From Motiliproteus sp. (lineage in GTDB: Bacteria > Pseudomonadota > Gammaproteobacteria > Pseudomonadales > Balneatricaceae), in assembly GCA_026196225.1 (NCBI GenBank), contig JAPHRD010000003.1, positions 1 to 64,000 of the forward strand: DNA of 64,000 bases, read 5' to 3'. Position numbers and translations under genes: made by a program. Shown here one piece after another: positions 3,816-9,272 of this stretch (position 1 is the first letter of the stretch; every line of letters starts with the position of its first letter). Under the pieces are notes generated by a model, which had not been told where the DNA came from, ran no database searches, and saw only the letters and a list, made by a program, of their open reading frames with translations.

Positions 3816-4736
3816 ATGATAGAGTTACGACACCTTAAGACACTCGCGGCCCTGCGAGATACCGGCAGCCTGGTAGAAGCGGCAGAACGGGTATTTTTAA
3901 CCCAGTCCGCCCTATCTCATCAGATAAAGGATCTCGAAGAACGACTTAACTGTTCGCTGTTTATTCGTAAAACCAAACCCATCTGCTTTACCAGTGCTGG
4001 CCAGCGCGTACTAACCCTGGCCGATGAAGTGCTGCCGATGATTCGTAACGCTGAGCGGGATATCGCCCGCCTAGCCGGTGGAGAAACCGGTCGCCTGAAT
4101 ATGGCGATCGAATGCCACAGCTGTTTTCAGTGGCTGATGCCCACCATCGACCTATTCCGTGAAAACTGGCCAGAAGTCGAAATGGACCTATCCAGCGGCT
4201 TCAGCTTCTCACCCTTGCCTGCATTAGCACGGGGTGAACTAGACCTGGTAATAACATCTGACCCACAAGAGATGAACGGCATCTGCTACGAGCCGCTGTT
4301 CAGCTACGAAGTTCAGGTGGCATTGTCTAAGAAACACCCTCTGGCCCGTAAAAGCCATATCGAACCGGAAGACTTTGTCGAAGAGACGCTGATCTGCTAT
4401 CCCGTAGATCGCAATCGGCTGGACGTTTTTACCCGCTTCCTCGATCCTGCGGACATTGAGCCGAAAGAGGTCCGTACCGCTGAATTAACGGTGATGATGC
4501 TGCAATTGATAGCGAGTGGTCGCGGCATCAGCGCGCTGCCCAGCTGGGCGCTTACAGAGTATGTGGATCGCGACTATGTGGCCGTGCGTCCGCTCTCTGC
4601 CAAAGGGATCTGGACCACGCTTTACGCCGCAATCCGTGACGATCAACGAGACGCTGAATTTATGCGTGACTTTCTCACCACCGCACGGGAAACCTCCTTT
4701 AGAAACCTCAGCGGTATTCGCACAGCCGCCAAATAA
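3816..4736 (+). CDS. metR: LysR-family regulator MetR
   Basis: A 306-residue LysR-type activator of methionine synthesis genes that uses homocysteine as co-effector. The N-terminal winged helix-turn-helix (about residues 1-60) begins MIELRHLKTL and contains TQSALSHQIKDLE. The effector domain contains the MetR-typical AIECHSCFQWL segment near residue 93 and LDLVITSD. I chose the ATG at 3816, not a TTG six bases upstream, because GGAG is 10 nt before it and because MetR proteins start MIE. A consensus MetR site lies upstream. No met biosynthesis gene is in the window. Confidence 0.92.
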   Translation: MIELRHLKTLAALRDTGSLVEAAERVFLTQSALSHQIKDLEERLNCSLFIRKTKPICFTSAGQRVLTLADEVLPMIRNAERDIARLAGGETGRLNMAIECHSCFQWLMPTIDLFRENWPEVEMDLSSGFSFSPLPALARGELDLVITSDPQEMNGICYEPLFSYEVQVALSKKHPLARKSHIEPEDFVEETLICYPVDRNRLDVFTRFLDPADIEPKEVRTAELTVMMLQLIASGRGISALPSWALTEYVDRDYVAVRPLSAKGIWTTLYAAIRDDQRDAEFMRDFLTTARETSFRNLSGIRTAAK

Positions 4737-4763
4737 ACACTAGCTTCTGAAAATTCCGTTCAG

Positions 4764-4797
4764 TCGGTAAAGTACTCTCCAATGAGTACTTTACCGA
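4764..4797. other. 14-bp perfect inverted repeat after metR
   Basis: Arms 4764-4777 and 4784-4797 (TCGGTAAAGTACTC and its complement) are separated by loop TCCAAT. There is no T-tract after it. It lies in the 119-nt spacer between metR and the DAHP synthase gene. It could be an operator for the downstream gene, a U-less terminator or an mRNA-stabilising hairpin. Confidence 0.6.
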
Positions 4798-4855
4798 AGC
4801 TCACTCGGGGGCATAAACTAGTCACATTAGTTATCCGATCCTTAAGGCATATCCA

Positions 4856-6211
4856 ATGACATCCTGGACACCAGACAGCTGGCGCAGCAAACCCATTTTG
4901 CAGCAGCCAAACTACCCTGAACTCAGCAAAGTAGCCGATGTTGAAGCCATGTTGGCCAATCGTCCACCGCTGGTTTTTGCCGGTGAAGTACGTTCATTAC
5001 GGAAACAGCTGGCAGAAGCCACCGAAGGTCGCGCTTTTTTACTACAGGGTGGCGACTGCGCCGAAAGCTTTGCAGAGTTTCATCCCGACAAGATACGTGA
5101 CACTTTTAAAGTCATGCTGCAGATGGCGGTGGTGCTGACTTACGCCGGCGGTTGCCCGGTGGTCAAGGTGGGACGGATGGCCGGCCAATTTGCCAAGCCC
5201 CGCTCTGCCGATACCGAAACCATCGATGGACAGGAACTACCCAGCTACCGTGGTGATATCGTTAACGACATCGCCTTCGAAGAGCAGGCACGCGAGCCGG
5301 ATCCTACCCGTTTGTTAGACGCTTATAACCAAGCGGTAGCCACCCAAAACTTGCTCCGCGCCTTTGCCCAGGGCGGCCTGGCCGATCTTCATCAGGTTCA
5401 TAAATGGAATCTGGACTTCGTTGCCCAGAGTCCATTGCGAGACAAATACCAGCACCTGTCAGAACAGCTGGATCAGACTCTGACCTTTATGGATGCCTGC
5501 GGTATCAGCTCGGTCAATACACCACAGATTCGTGAAACCAATCTTTACACTTCTCACGAAGCCCTTTTACTCAACTACGAGCAGGCATTGACTCGAGAGG
5601 ATAGCATCGGCAATGGCAACTGGTACGACTGCTCTGCTCATATGCTCTGGATCGGTGACCGGACCCGGCAACTGGACGGAGCCCACATTGAATTCCTGCG
5701 GGGTGTTCGCAACCCCGTGGGCGTTAAAGTCGGCCCGACTATGGACAGCGATGAATTGATCAAGCTGATCGATATCCTGAATCCAAACAATGAACCAGGC
5801 AGGCTCAACCTGATCTCCCGCATGGGCGCTGAAAAGGTCACCGAACTGCTGCCACCGCTGGTACGTAAAGTCGCCGCGGAAGGCCGCAACGTATTGTGGA
5901 GCTGTGATCCGATGCACGGCAATACCATTAAAGCCTCTTCAGGCTACAAGACCCGCGCCGTCGACAGCATCCTGCAGGAGATGAAAGGCTTCTTCGAAGT
6001 ACATAAAACCGAAGGCACTATTGCCGGTGGTGTTCATTTTGAGATGACGGGGCAGAACGTTACCGAGTGTATCGGCGGCGCCTACCAGATCACCGAAGCC
6101 AATCTGGGAGACCGCTATCACACCCACTGCGATCCCCGCCTGAATGCGGACCAATCACTGGAACTGGCGTTTCTTATAGCAGACACTCTAAAAGCAGCCC
6201 GACAGCGCTAA
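4856..6211 (+). CDS. Class II (plant-type) 3-deoxy-7-phosphoheptulonate synthase
   Basis: A 451-residue DAHP synthase that condenses phosphoenolpyruvate and erythrose 4-phosphate, the first step of aromatic amino acid synthesis. It belongs to the class II family (plants, Mycobacterium AroG, Pseudomonas), not the short AroFGH class. Class II features are the N-terminal [18 protein letters not shown] segment, [11 protein letters not shown] near residue 65 with the metal-binding Cys, [12 protein letters not shown], and the C-terminal [10 protein letters not shown] and [15 protein letters not shown] segments. The length is typical. yqcC starts immediately after the stop codon, so the two are translationally adjacent. 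Confidence 0.93.
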
Positions 6212-6553
6212 GTGACGGCATTGATAAAAGATCGAAATAAGCAGGTCCAGCAACTGTTGGCGGACATCGAACAGCAATTGATTCAGCTAGATCTTTGGCG
6301 CTCCACACCTCCGAGCGCTGAAGCCCTGGTCAGTACCGAGCCGTTCTGCGTCGACACCCTTGCCCTTAGCGAATGGTTGCAATGGGTACTGATACCACGA
6401 ATGTGCGAATTGATACAACGACAGATGCCACTCCCCGGAAATTGCAACATTCACGCAATTGCAGAGGAGAGCTTTAAGGAGTTGAATCAGGATTACAGCC
6501 AGCTTATGCAGCTGATCAAGGATTTTGACGAATCACTAACCGTGCGCCACTGA
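6212..6553 (+). CDS. yqcC: YqcC-family protein
   Basis: A 113-residue small helical protein of the YqcC family, whose function is unknown. The family signature is visible as EPFCVDTLALSEWLQWVLIPRM near residues 45-66, followed by the MPLPGN segment. The predicted GTG start abuts the TAA of the DAHP synthase gene with no spacer, implying translational coupling. An in-frame TTG nine bases later is an alternative. A convergent terminator follows. Confidence 0.8.
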   Translation: MTALIKDRNKQVQQLLADIEQQLIQLDLWRSTPPSAEALVSTEPFCVDTLALSEWLQWVLIPRMCELIQRQMPLPGNCNIHAIAEESFKELNQDYSQLMQLIKDFDESLTVRH

Positions 6554-6609: not shown

Positions 6610-7023
6610 CTATTTATCGTCGATAGCTTTCAGCAAGCCATCCAGTACGATCTCATCATAACTGACGATTCCCAGCACGTCATTGCCATCAATAACCGGC
6701 GCCACCGACAAACCAAAATTATCAAACAGCCGAGCACAGTAACGCACATCCATATCAGGCTTCACGCTAATCACAGGCTTGGCCATGATTTCATAGACAT
6801 TGACCCGCTCGGGTGAACGGTCTTTAGCTACAACCTGTTTGGCAATATCGGAAAGCAGCACCAAACCATACTCATCGTCATCATTGCGCTTACGCACTAC
6901 CAACACAGAAACGCGATCATCACGGCAATCCTGCAGCGCCTCTTGAACGGTAATCAGACCATCAACCATGGTAAAACCGGAGTTCATGATGTCCTTTACC
7001 CGAATCACTTTTCTATCACTCAT
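6610..7023 (-). CDS. CBS-domain-pair protein, last gene of the DUF1538 operon
   Basis: A 137-residue protein consisting of two CBS motifs and little else. Motif one covers about residues 9-75 (VKDIMNSGFTMV, VSVLVV, LVLLSDI). Motif two covers about residues 78-135 (VYEIMAKPVISVKPDMDV, LSVAPVIDGNDVLGIVSYDEI). CBS pairs (Bateman modules) usually bind adenosine nucleotides and act as energy sensors. The ATG overlaps the stop of the PII-like gene as ATGA, so translation is coupled. Together with the PII-like protein it probably forms the regulatory part of the DUF1538 membrane system (inference from gene order). It is distinct from the CBS protein at 12229-12636. Confidence 0.88.
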   Translation of the reverse strand: MSDRKVIRVKDIMNSGFTMVDGLITVQEALQDCRDDRVSVLVVRKRNDDDEYGLVLLSDIAKQVVAKDRSPERVNVYEIMAKPVISVKPDMDVRYCARLFDNFGLSVAPVIDGNDVLGIVSYDEIVLDGLLKAIDDK

Positions 7024-7370
7024 AACTCATCCTCAATCTCATGGCTGATATTCTCTACCTGGTGGGCTACACCTACGGCATCTTCTACGTCAATCTGAAT
7101 AGCCATTCCGGTTCCAGGCTCGTCATCAAAGTGCCCTACTTTTGAGATGGTCTCTAAAATCTTGCGTGAACGGTGCTCTTCAACGATAAACAACAACACA
7201 TCCCGCTGGCTTTCCAAGGTCAATCCCAGAAAAGTCTTCGACTTATTCAGACCTTCACCGCGAGCATTATTGATGATGGTTGCCCCCGTCGCTCCCGCTT
7301 CCCTCGCTGCCTTCATCACCGTGTCAGATTTACTATCCTCGACAAAGGCTACTATCAATTTGAAATGCAT
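7020..7370 (-). CDS. PII-like signalling protein
   Basis: A 116-residue protein with a PII-type fold pattern: MHFKLIVAFVEDSKSDTVMKAAREAGATGATI at the N-terminus matches the first beta-alpha-beta unit, RDVLLFIVEEHRSRKILETISK matches the second, and FDDEPGTGMAIQIDVEDAVGV the C-terminal strands. It is not a canonical GlnB/GlnK: the T-loop region is short and lacks the uridylylated Tyr51 context. It sits between a DUF1538 membrane gene and a CBS gene and probably regulates the membrane proteins by binding a small ligand (inference). It overlaps the CBS gene by 4 nt and is 25 nt from the preceding DUF1538 gene. Confidence 0.82.
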   Translation of the reverse strand: MHFKLIVAFVEDSKSDTVMKAAREAGATGATIINNARGEGLNKSKTFLGLTLESQRDVLLFIVEEHRSRKILETISKVGHFDDEPGTGMAIQIDVEDAVGVAHQVENISHEIEDEL

Positions 7371-7395
7371 CAGTTATCTCCTAAAACGCATTCAA

Positions 7396-8175
7396 CTACG
7401 GCTGTTGTTTGCTCTTCGCTCGTTTTTGCTGCCATTCCGACAGCTGCGCATATCCCATCACCGACATAATCGGAAACAGACTGGCGAAAGCGATCAGACC
7501 AAAACCGTCTATCAGTACACTTCTTCCTGGAACCGTTTCTGCCAGCCCAAGTCCCAGCGCAGCCACCAGAGGTACAGTTACCGTTGAGGTGGTTACACCA
7601 CCCGAGTCATAGGCCAAGGGAATGATTAGCTTGGGGGCAAAATAGGTCTGTATCACGACTATTACATAGCCACTGATAATGAAATAGTGGATCGGCAAAC
7701 CGGTAACGATTCGATAAGTCCCTAGGGATATCCCCACCGCAACCCCCAGGGCAACGGCAATACGCAAGCCCCAGATACCGATACTGCCGCCAGACACTTC
7801 ATTAGCCTTGATTGCCACCGCAATCAACGAAGGCTCAGCAATGGTGGTACTAGCACCGATGGCGAAGGCAAAAATATAAACCCAGTAGTAGTCCTGCCAA
7901 TGCAAAACAGCAGCATCTACACCCTGGCTGATAAATGCTGGGTTAGTCAGTTGTTCCGCCATCAATCGGCCTACGGGGAACAGTGCTTTTTCCAATCCCA
8001 ATAGAAAAAAGGCCAGCCCGACGATGACGTACGCAAAGCCAATCAGTACTCGGCGCAGATTGGGTATCGGCTTGCGAATCACCAAAAACTGAAAACCAAA
8101 GATGATCGCAGCAATCGGGATCACATCTTTGATGGTAGAGAACAGTATCGAGATCAGGTTTTCTAGCAATTCCAT
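7396..8175 (-). CDS. DUF1538 membrane protein, second copy
   Basis: A 259-residue polytopic membrane protein, about six to eight hydrophobic segments, of unknown function. Conserved motifs shared with the preceding paralogue are LGLEKALFPVG (near residue 60), STTIAEPSLIAVA (near 115), YFAPKLIIPLAYDSGG followed by VTTSTVTVPLVAALG (near 185-210), and [14 protein letters not shown] (near 230). The polar AYDSGG/TTST motif inside membrane segments suggests an ion or small-solute path (inference). The basic C-terminal tail (QQKRAKSKQQP) is probably cytoplasmic. The ATG abuts the stop of the first copy (TAAATG). Confidence 0.85.
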   Translation of the reverse strand: MELLENLISILFSTIKDVIPIAAIIFGFQFLVIRKPIPNLRRVLIGFAYVIVGLAFFLLGLEKALFPVGRLMAEQLTNPAFISQGVDAAVLHWQDYYWVYIFAFAIGASTTIAEPSLIAVAIKANEVSGGSIGIWGLRIAVALGVAVGISLGTYRIVTGLPIHYFIISGYVIVVIQTYFAPKLIIPLAYDSGGVTTSTVTVPLVAALGLGLAETVPGRSVLIDGFGLIAFASLFPIMSVMGYAQLSEWQQKRAKSKQQP

Positions 8176-8910
8176 TTAGATCACCATCCCGTAAGCCATC
8201 ACAAATATCATGGGGGTCAACGAGGCAAAGGCGATCAAACCAAAGCCGTCAATCATCGGATTTCGGCCTTTAATGGTGGACGCCAGACCGACGCCCAATG
8301 CTGTCACCAGAGGCACGGTAATAGTAGAAGTAGTCACACCGCCGGAGTCATAAGCGATGCCGATAATCTCTTTGGGGGCAAAGAAGGTCATGATAACCAC
8401 CAGCATGTAACCACCGATGATCAAATTTTGTATGGGCCAGCCCCTCAAGATACGCAACACCCCGATCACAATGGCCAAACCCACTGCAAAAGCGACGGTA
8501 AATCGAAGTCCGTTGGCATAAACAGCCTGGGCATCCTGATTGTTTTCGATCATCCCACCTTCGGCGGCCACCTTGCCTGCCTCAGCAGCAACCGCGATCA
8601 GCGCAGGCTCGGCTACCGTAGTACCGAACCCTAGTGCGAAGGCAAAGGTCAACAACCAACCGAGACTGCCTTTACGGGCAAAAGCGTGGGCCATCGCCTC
8701 ACCTATGGGAAACAACCCCATCTCCAGTCCGAAGATAAAAAAGGTTAGACCCAGGACAACGAAGATGACGCCAATAAACAGCCCGACCAGATCAGGCAGA
8801 GGCTGCTGAAGTACAACAAACTGGAAAAAAACGATAACGACGATGATGGGAGCCAGATCACGCATGCTTCCCAGCATAGATCCAAATAGAGCGCGTACTG
8901 TTTGTTTCAA
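8176..8910 (-). CDS. DUF1538 membrane protein, first copy and first gene of the operon
   Basis: A 244-residue polytopic membrane protein homologous to the next gene, with matching motifs: [40 protein letters not shown], then [14 protein letters not shown], and [14 protein letters not shown]. The tandem arrangement implies a heteromer or a pair that acts together. The longest reading starts at a TTG without a clear ribosome-binding site; the ATG 11 codons later ([10 protein letters not shown]) is a plausible alternative. A dyad lies upstream at 8923-8938. Function is not known. Export or exchange of a small metabolite or ion under PII/CBS control is one possibility. Confidence 0.83.
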
Positions 8911-8969: not shown

Positions 8970-9272
8970 TCATCCGTGCTGAATAGTTTGATCACCTTCC
9001 GATGCAATTAATTGCAACTTTTTGATACGTGTGAGTTTTTTTATTCTTGCCTCCTCCTTGCTGGCTTCGGAACGGTCGCCGAAACGCTGCTGGAAGCGTA
9101 TTTGAGAGGGAGGATCCGTTCGGAAAAACTTGGCGCCTTTGCCCTGTTGGTGCTGACTAAACCGCCGCTGTATATCGGTGGTAATTCCGGTGTAGAGACG
9201 TCCGCTCTGGGTCTCGATGATGTAGAGAAACCAGTCACTGGATTCAGTTCCTTTGCTCAATGCTACTTGCAC
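8970..9272 (-). CDS. GIY-YIG domain protein, YhbQ/UPF0213-like
   Basis: A 100-residue single-domain GIY-YIG protein. The motif appears as FLYIIE and LYTGITTDIQRRFSQHQQGKGAKFF, with the catalytic Arg in the RRF segment; GDRSEASKEEARIKKLT follows with the Glu of the active site. Small stand-alone members such as E. coli YhbQ are putative nucleases, with reported roles in DNA damage or stress response not well defined. The start is GTG or a nearby TTG; the N-terminal ten residues are poorly conserved. It lies 59 nt upstream of the DUF1538 operon on the same strand but is probably functionally unrelated. Confidence 0.88.
   Translation of the reverse strand: MQVALSKGTESSDWFLYIIETQSGRLYTGITTDIQRRFSQHQQGKGAKFFRTDPPSQIRFQQRFGDRSEASKEEARIKKLTRIKKLQLIASEGDQTIQHG

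Follow-up and report, generated by a model that had tools for sequence, protein, structure and literature searches.

What is achieved by an operon in which two paralogous membrane proteins of the DUF1538 family are encoded alongside a PII-like protein and a protein with a probable pair of CBS domains? Such an operon occupies positions 6610 to 8910 of the window analyzed here, the whole stretch of 64,000 nucleotides (nt) from Motiliproteus sp. (GenBank assembly GCA_026196225.1, contig JAPHRD010000003.1, positions 1 to 64,000). Open reading frame (ORF) calls and the DNA itself agree with an earlier note, made from the sequence alone, that described four tightly spaced minus-strand genes: the TAA of the umpA-like gene is followed without a gap by the ATG of the umpB-like gene, 25 nt containing AGGAG separate the latter from the PII-like gene, and the PII-like and CBS genes overlap in ATGA. 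That note had also pointed to motifs shared by the two membrane proteins, and both proteins do contain AEPxLIAVA as well as a 17-letter motif. The Pfam domain DUF1538 (PF07556) was detected with 234.8 bits in the UmpA-like and 226 bits in the UmpB-like protein (cutoff, 22.6), P-II with 43.8 bits (cutoff, 25), and CBS with 56.9 bits (cutoff, 24). The umpA-like and umpB-like genes are adjacent and co-directional and thus form the adjacent pair of homologous DUF1538 genes that is characteristic of the UmpAB family. Our answer is that the operon probably encodes a cation/proton antiporter under the control of a PII-like sensor of its own, to which many genomes add a CBS sensor; the exchanger would be opened and closed to suit the metabolic state of the cell.

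The gene neighborhood is conserved in other genomes far more than chance would give, so that the lack of conservation named in the earlier note as a refutation was not observed. DUF1538 pairs were counted only where the sequence continued for 1 kb or more downstream. In an evenly drawn sample of Pseudomonadota, 70 of 199 genomes were DUF1538 positive, and among the 79 loci obtained from 68 of these 70, a PII gene lay directly downstream in 74 of 78 pairs and a CBS gene in 36 of 78. The corresponding figures were 22/22 and 19/22 for the near relatives (20 loci), 75/75 and 73/75 for the closest 80 loci of named genomes, and 7/7 and 0/7 for plasmid records (7 of the 9 found); some species may be shared between the four samples, and related genomes do not count as independent. 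Left out of the counts were loci with less than 1 kb downstream (L057, L082, L109, L180, L192, L246, and L252); L066, which lacks a complete gene; L117, with one domain at the edge of a contig; G191, with a DUF1538 fragment of 35 positions; further copies in a few genomes such as G151; and plasmid hits H4 and H7, which come from the same species as H3 and H6. L206, with a truncated first DUF1538 gene, was still counted as a pair, and for L195 to L198, longer stretches covering the same places were used instead. DUF1538 itself was paired in 189 of 190 clusters, the exception being L117, which ends at the contig edge. A rule by which CBS is always present was rejected on the count from the phylum sample.

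The exceptions to the linkage are instructive. L157 in the phylum sample is a split pair with the PII gene upstream, and in G138, G143, and G170 the same PII type is encoded elsewhere in the genome (135 to 141 bits), as it is in G191 (142.7 bits), which has only the DUF1538 fragment. The PII and CBS genes lie side by side, away from the transporter, in G138, G170, and G191, and the PII gene of G143 has no CBS neighbor. Together with the counts, these cases identify PII as a near-obligate partner of DUF1538, CBS as an add-on, and PII-CBS as a unit of its own. The link to both sensors drawn in the earlier note thus stands for PII, and for CBS it stands as an optional one. As a separate observation, a PII-CBS pair apart from DUF1538 (L284, 141 to 955) follows a gene whose start, judged by eye, resembles malic enzyme.

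A profile of the PII type (16 rows, 2 of them from genomes tested) was also run on 56 relatives and matched, with E values up to 1e-8, in 24 of the 26 genomes with DUF1538 and in none of the 30 without it; the two genomes missed, G038 and G049, have a fused DUF1538 gene beside more divergent PII genes. The CBS profile exceeded 100 bits in 22/26 and 0/30 genomes, respectively, and gave two weak matches of ~55 bits in genomes lacking DUF1538. Relatedness inflates these co-occurrence counts, yet genera g5 and g12 have members both with and without the module. This pattern bears on the possibility that the PII-like protein is a separate metabolic regulator, merely co-transcribed and never touching the transporter, and that the same holds for the CBS protein. 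The PII-CBS pairs found away from DUF1538 in three genomes would suit such a regulator, and contact between PII and transporter is a prediction. However, the linkage is conserved in both Pseudomonadota and Clostridia and in fused as well as split forms, the co-occurrence is strong, and the exceptions keep the same PII type in the genome, so that we consider this explanation improbable.

The module occurs in several architectures. Class I has umpA, umpB, PII, and often CBS; class II has a fused AB gene (product of ~500 amino acids), PII, and CBS; and class III has a fused AB gene (~570 to 650 amino acids) with two PII genes. In a clostridial class, the fused AB gene is accompanied by a gene for a tandem PII-PII protein of 217 to 229 amino acids (305 in the longest reading of L209) in 5/5 loci (L204 and L207 to L210), all in records filed as plasmids. 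Within the phylum sample, two PII domains are encoded downstream of 23 of 27 fused pairs, a count that includes L157 by way of a PII gene belonging to the next pair, and of 0 of 51 split pairs. A 420-amino-acid protein encoded after the fused AB gene of L044 (G038; 4399 to 5661) has three PII-like stretches (residues 11 to 105, 133 to 226, and 290 to 367; E values of 5e-12, 9e-24, and 2e-11 with our own iterated profile), the middle one alone being detected by Pfam, and is possibly a single-chain PII trimer. The partner sets thus vary by class: one PII, PII with CBS, two PII genes, tandem PII-PII, or three stretches in one chain. In a PII tree, the eight DUF1538 classes required seven label changes, which is the minimum (shuffled mean, 35.7), and therefore the PII type tracks the DUF1538 class. 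Some loci are odd: L029 (4142 to 9103) and L033 (4041 to 9024) contain tandem modules, PII-A-B-PII-CBS followed by fused AB-PII-CBS, in which the split pair is flanked by PII genes on both sides. On a conjugative Chelativorans plasmid (L206, 4315 to 4863), the first DUF1538 gene matches over ~80 residues, and the second DUF1538 gene and the PII gene are full length.

The AlphaFold2 model of the window PII-like protein (mean predicted local distance difference test [pLDDT] value, 79.7; below 50 for residues 38 to 46, the T-loop) predicts the ferredoxin-like PII fold with a flexible T-loop, and the best Foldseek matches of the model were TTHA0516, CPII, GlnK1, and SbtB (E values from 4.7e-6). 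Residues were compared in 56 rows, the window protein and 55 relatives, with the numbering of the canonical PII protein of the same genome. Gly27, Thr29, Gly35, Gly37, Gly87, and Gly89 are kept in all 56 rows. No row has a tyrosine in the T-loop region, as the earlier note had observed for the window protein. Position 90, a lysine in canonical PII, is Ile, Met, or Val, and position 101, a canonical arginine, is Gly in 56/56 rows; Arg103 is kept in 4. We take the T-loop tyrosine to be the uridylylation site of canonical PII and Lys90, Arg101, and Arg103 to bind phosphate. By these residues, the window protein is not a canonical GlnB or GlnK protein, having lost the modification site and most of the phosphate-binding residues. 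Because the cleft glycines are kept and the phosphate clamp is mostly lost, it is plausible that the ligand is not ATP bound in the canonical mode and could be, for instance, AMP or cAMP, as in SbtB.

The same comparison makes it very improbable that an ordinary nitrogen PII (GlnK-like) gene simply lies beside an unrelated transporter. The Pfam P-II match would agree with such a gene, but the Motiliproteus genome has two canonical PII genes with full motifs elsewhere (L003 and L004), the tyrosine, Lys90, and Arg101 are each absent from every row of the PII-like type, and this type is missing from all 30 relatives without DUF1538. A third PII paralogue of the genome (Pfam DUF3240 and P-II; contig C126, L006, 1462 to 1803) is directly followed by a gene for a HupE/UreJ-type membrane protein (1847 to 2992), which is another pair of a PII-like and a membrane protein.

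In the CBS protein, Pfam recognizes one stretch, the second CBS domain (residues 76 to 126). Its Protein Data Bank (PDB) matches span most of the chain: CBS-CP12 (5nmu; best match, E value of 1.3e-21) covers residues 6 to 127 and Ta0289 (1pvm) covers residues 6 to 124.

What, then, do the membrane proteins transport? The earlier note called the system uncharacterized and knew of no assigned substrate, and the Pfam entry for DUF1538 still lists the function as unknown. This view is out of date: in 2017, another DUF1538 pair, UmpAB of Halomonas zhaodongensis, was described as a heterodimer with Na+(Li+, K+)/H+ antiporter activity (PMC5484666), albeit by one laboratory and with one type of assay, and NCBIfam has models for both subunits. 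According to that report, growth at 0.2 M NaCl or 5 mM LiCl was restored only by co-expression of both genes, umpA or umpB alone giving some weak salt tolerance; UmpA and UmpB formed a heterodimer in coimmunoprecipitation; and everted vesicles showed Na+/H+, Li+/H+, and K+/H+ exchange, with K0.5 values of 0.26, 0.46, and 0.41 mM, respectively (PMC5484666). The window locus resembles umpAB in having two adjacent homologous DUF1538 genes for proteins of ~250 amino acids that probably act as a pair, each putatively with seven helices. The two also belong to one family of homologues, since the Vibrio xiamenensis homologue placed in the UmpAB clade (PMC5484666) lies in a locus (L111) with the gene set umpA-umpB-PII-CBS, and its UmpA is 72% identical to that of the window. 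The main text of the Halomonas report, in contrast, names neither PII nor CBS. From the homologue, we infer Na+(K+)/H+ antiport in the window organism also. Physiology fits with a role in cation and pH balance: saltwater or brackish species of cable bacteria carry UmpAB homologues (PMC10030654, PMC12093952), and DUF1538 is one of the top 20 Pfam features in a model of growth pH (PMC13255231). The homology to UmpAB and the conserved neighborhood both support the earlier proposal of a transporting DUF1538 heteromer linked to PII-like and CBS sensors.

The same architecture could, however, serve another solute, such as bicarbonate, an organic anion, or ammonium, and be gated by PII in the manner of SbtA or AmtB, the antiport seen with the Halomonas proteins being a side activity. 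Several hosts of the module among the named genomes belong to genera known for autotrophy or methanotrophy, and Na+/H+ antiport has also been reported for proteins of other, unrelated families (RDD, an MFS transporter, and UPF0118), reportedly with the same Escherichia coli screen as for UmpAB, so that this type of assay may be permissive. PII-regulated transporters named in a 2023 review, moreover, carry ammonium, nitrate/nitrite, urea, or bicarbonate (PMC10710835). The direct exchange of Na+, Li+, and K+ for H+ in vesicles at submillimolar K0.5 (PMC5484666), the UmpAB homologues of saltwater cable bacteria (PMC10030654, PMC12093952), and the presence of the module in heterotrophic vibrios and clostridia all argue the other way, and we regard another solute as unlikely, though not negligible.

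In the AlphaFold2 model of the window UmpA-like protein (pLDDT, 88.1), the helices can be interpreted as crossing the membrane seven times, with two of the crossings broken: one helix breaks at residues 100 and 101, and helix 180 to 192 is followed by a break at residues 193 to 197. Glu101 (in AEP) and Asp188 (in YDSGGVTTS) lie at or just ahead of these breaks and are invariant in 19 of 19 diverse DUF1538 halves and also in a larger alignment (Glu101 in 100/100 rows). Two Glu and two Asp residues, one of each per half, would then most likely meet in a central cation/proton site. For the topology, Lys and Arg residues were counted on each side of the membrane, with the helices taken from the UmpA model. 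The difference between the sides was positive in 61/61 UmpA and negative in 39/39 UmpB proteins; without the termini, 59 UmpA proteins were positive with 2 ties, and 37 UmpB proteins were negative with 1 tie and 1 against. In all 38 fused proteins, the first half was positive and the second half negative. The side rich in Lys and Arg is cytoplasmic according to the positive-inside rule, and the charge bias therefore predicts an N terminus inside for UmpA and outside for UmpB. It strongly suggests that the two subunits are oppositely oriented in the membrane, which would make UmpAB, split or fused, a seven-helix inverted repeat (7+7). The words topology, antiparallel, and dual are absent from the main text of PMC5484666.

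From these predictions, and by analogy with known PII-transporter pairs, we propose that the operon would encode both an UmpAB-type (DUF1538) antiporter, which would have two components and exchange monovalent cations for protons, and a cytoplasmic control unit dedicated to it. The homologous seven-helix UmpA and UmpB, oppositely oriented, would jointly form one 14-helix inverted-repeat transporter, in which the conserved Glu and Asp at the helix breaks of each half most likely make up the cation/proton site. The PII-like protein is presumably trimeric; it may dock on the cytoplasmic face of UmpAB and insert its flexible T-loop, so that the small molecule bound would decide whether the transporter is locked or released. 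SbtB and GlnK act similarly on SbtA and AmtB, their T-loops entering the cytoplasmic side of the cognate transporter (PMC8352866, PMC10710835). The CBS protein might add or relay an adenine-nucleotide signal. T-loop gating, the ligand, and the CBS role are hypotheses.

Several points weigh against a PII-gated antiporter of the UmpAB kind in this organism. The best NCBIfam models for the two window proteins are UmpA (377 bits) and UmpB (384 bits), but in distinction to Halomonas UmpAB, both score below the equivalog cutoffs (490 and 500 bits) of these models, NF041627 and NF041628, named "Na,Li,K/H(+) antiporter subunits," and so the pair is not assignable to these equivalogs. The UmpA cutoff appears to be narrowly drawn, since none of the 391 genomes in an order-wide sample reached it (best score, 428). 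The evidence for antiport comes from a single laboratory, which studied one species and used everted vesicles from an E. coli mutant. No PII-like or CBS gene was described on the Halomonas umpAB clone that was active in E. coli (PMC5484666), which suggests that both proteins are regulators that are unneeded for basal transport and leaves both activation and inhibition of UmpAB by PII possible. The use of PII seems to be restricted to trimeric transporters according to the 2023 review (PMC10710835), and UmpAB is known as a heterodimer. Foldseek found no solved fold in the PDB for the UmpA monomer model (best E value, 0.61), and VIA-align reached a Z score of at most 5.7, with unrelated helical proteins; a novel fold is not concluded, since the subunit is normally in contact with its partner. 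Finally, the second PII protein of class III groups with two canonical PII rows in the PII tree (97/87, with long branches), which speaks against a single origin of all DUF1538-linked PII proteins.

The DUF1538 tree unites classes I and II (100/99), with UmpA and the first halves as the sister group of UmpB and the second halves, and places the clostridial halves with a Methylocystis split pair. The hypothesis that UmpA-like and UmpB-like halves separated only once, which keeps all N-terminal halves together, was rejected by the approximately unbiased test (P value of 0.005); caution is needed because the tree has long branches and the group was chosen after the first tree had been seen. That the N-terminal halves are not one group would be explained if orientation had been fixed repeatedly, starting from a dual-topology ancestor, gene conversion and long branches being alternatives; descent from a single dual-topology protein would lead one to expect that the halves became distinct repeatedly. 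We propose tentatively that a PII-gated cation/proton antiporter, made as an antiparallel heterodimer or a fused chain, exists in Pseudomonadota and Clostridia, each class with its own PII partner, and that its halves became distinct more than once.

Among known systems, SbtA-SbtB is similar in that a gene for an inverted-repeat transporter is followed by a PII-like gene (PMC8352866), and SbtB chains are among the best Foldseek matches mentioned above. However, SbtA has 5+5 helices in one chain, as opposed to 7+7 in two chains or one; SbtB is encoded next to SbtA, whereas the neighbor here is DUF1538; and the window module is an antiporter by homology, often has an extra CBS or second PII protein, and lacks a sequence match to solved structures (a search of the PDB gave none for UmpA and one chance-level match, with an E value of 0.42, for the fused DUF1538 profile). 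AmtB and GlnK are likewise genetically linked (PMC10710835), but the transporter is a different one, and GlnK is uridylylated at a site that the window protein has lost. Tandem CBS modules are the nucleotide sensors of the transporters CorB/MpfA and MgtE and of an osmoregulatory ABC transporter (PMC10710835); the window CBS protein, in contrast, is a separate small protein accompanied by a PII-like one.

The UmpAB antiporter and the control of transporters by PII are already known, and it is their link that appears to be new. As PII-controlled transporters, the 2023 review names those for ammonium, nitrate, urea, and bicarbonate (PMC10710835). A literature search, with subscription journals and preprints outside its coverage, found no paper whose title or opening abstract lines linked PII to a DUF1538 protein or reported a PII-controlled cation/proton antiporter, and among the matches listed, no paper contained both "DUF1538" and "P-II family nitrogen regulator." Few bacterial sensors are as widespread as PII proteins. 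If the proposal is true, PII signaling would also govern Na+/K+/H+ exchange and hence pH and salt balance in many bacteria, and monovalent-cation and pH homeostasis would be governed by a sensor family that also has nitrogen and carbon uptake under its control. With fused and split versions available in nature, and with single, double, or tandem PII, the mechanism and its evolution can be tested directly; these versions also offer a handle on DUF1538 proteins.

Coordinates of the module, of two conserved codons, and of the flanking genes in the window
Feature	Position	Strand	Remarks
umpA-like gene, DUF1538 membrane protein	8176-8910	-	244 amino acids, TTG start; predicted N terminus in, C terminus out; Pfam, NCBIfam, AlphaFold2, charge bias
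umpB-like gene, DUF1538 membrane protein	7396-8175	-	259 amino acids; predicted N terminus out, C terminus in; Pfam, NCBIfam, charge bias
PII-like regulator gene	7020-7370	-	116 amino acids; Pfam P-II, AlphaFold2, Foldseek, residue comparison, co-occurrence
Probable CBS-pair protein gene, optional partner	6610-7023	-	137 amino acids; Pfam CBS, PDB match
Codon of invariant Glu101 (AEP, discontinuous-helix break), umpA-like gene	8608-8610	-	Counted from the start at 8910
Codon of invariant Asp188 (YDSGGVTTS, before second helix break), umpA-like gene	8347-8349	-	Counted from the start at 8910
GIY-YIG domain gene	8970-9272	-	59 nt upstream of the umpA-like gene
DUF446 gene	6212-6553	Facing the module	Downstream of the CBS gene

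A scan of the locus for promoters and terminators gave sites no more frequently than in shuffled sequences. Viral contigs were scanned three times for fused DUF1538, and no relative was confirmed in two of the scans; the end of one contig of a viral collection (L211, 4001 to 4684) carries a 684-bp DUF1538 fragment that is 62% identical to a clostridial fused protein and is either a host flank or part of a misassigned contig. The GIY-YIG gene of the window could be co-transcribed with the umpA-like gene; a similar gene, recognized by eye, also precedes umpA in L020, from the same genus.

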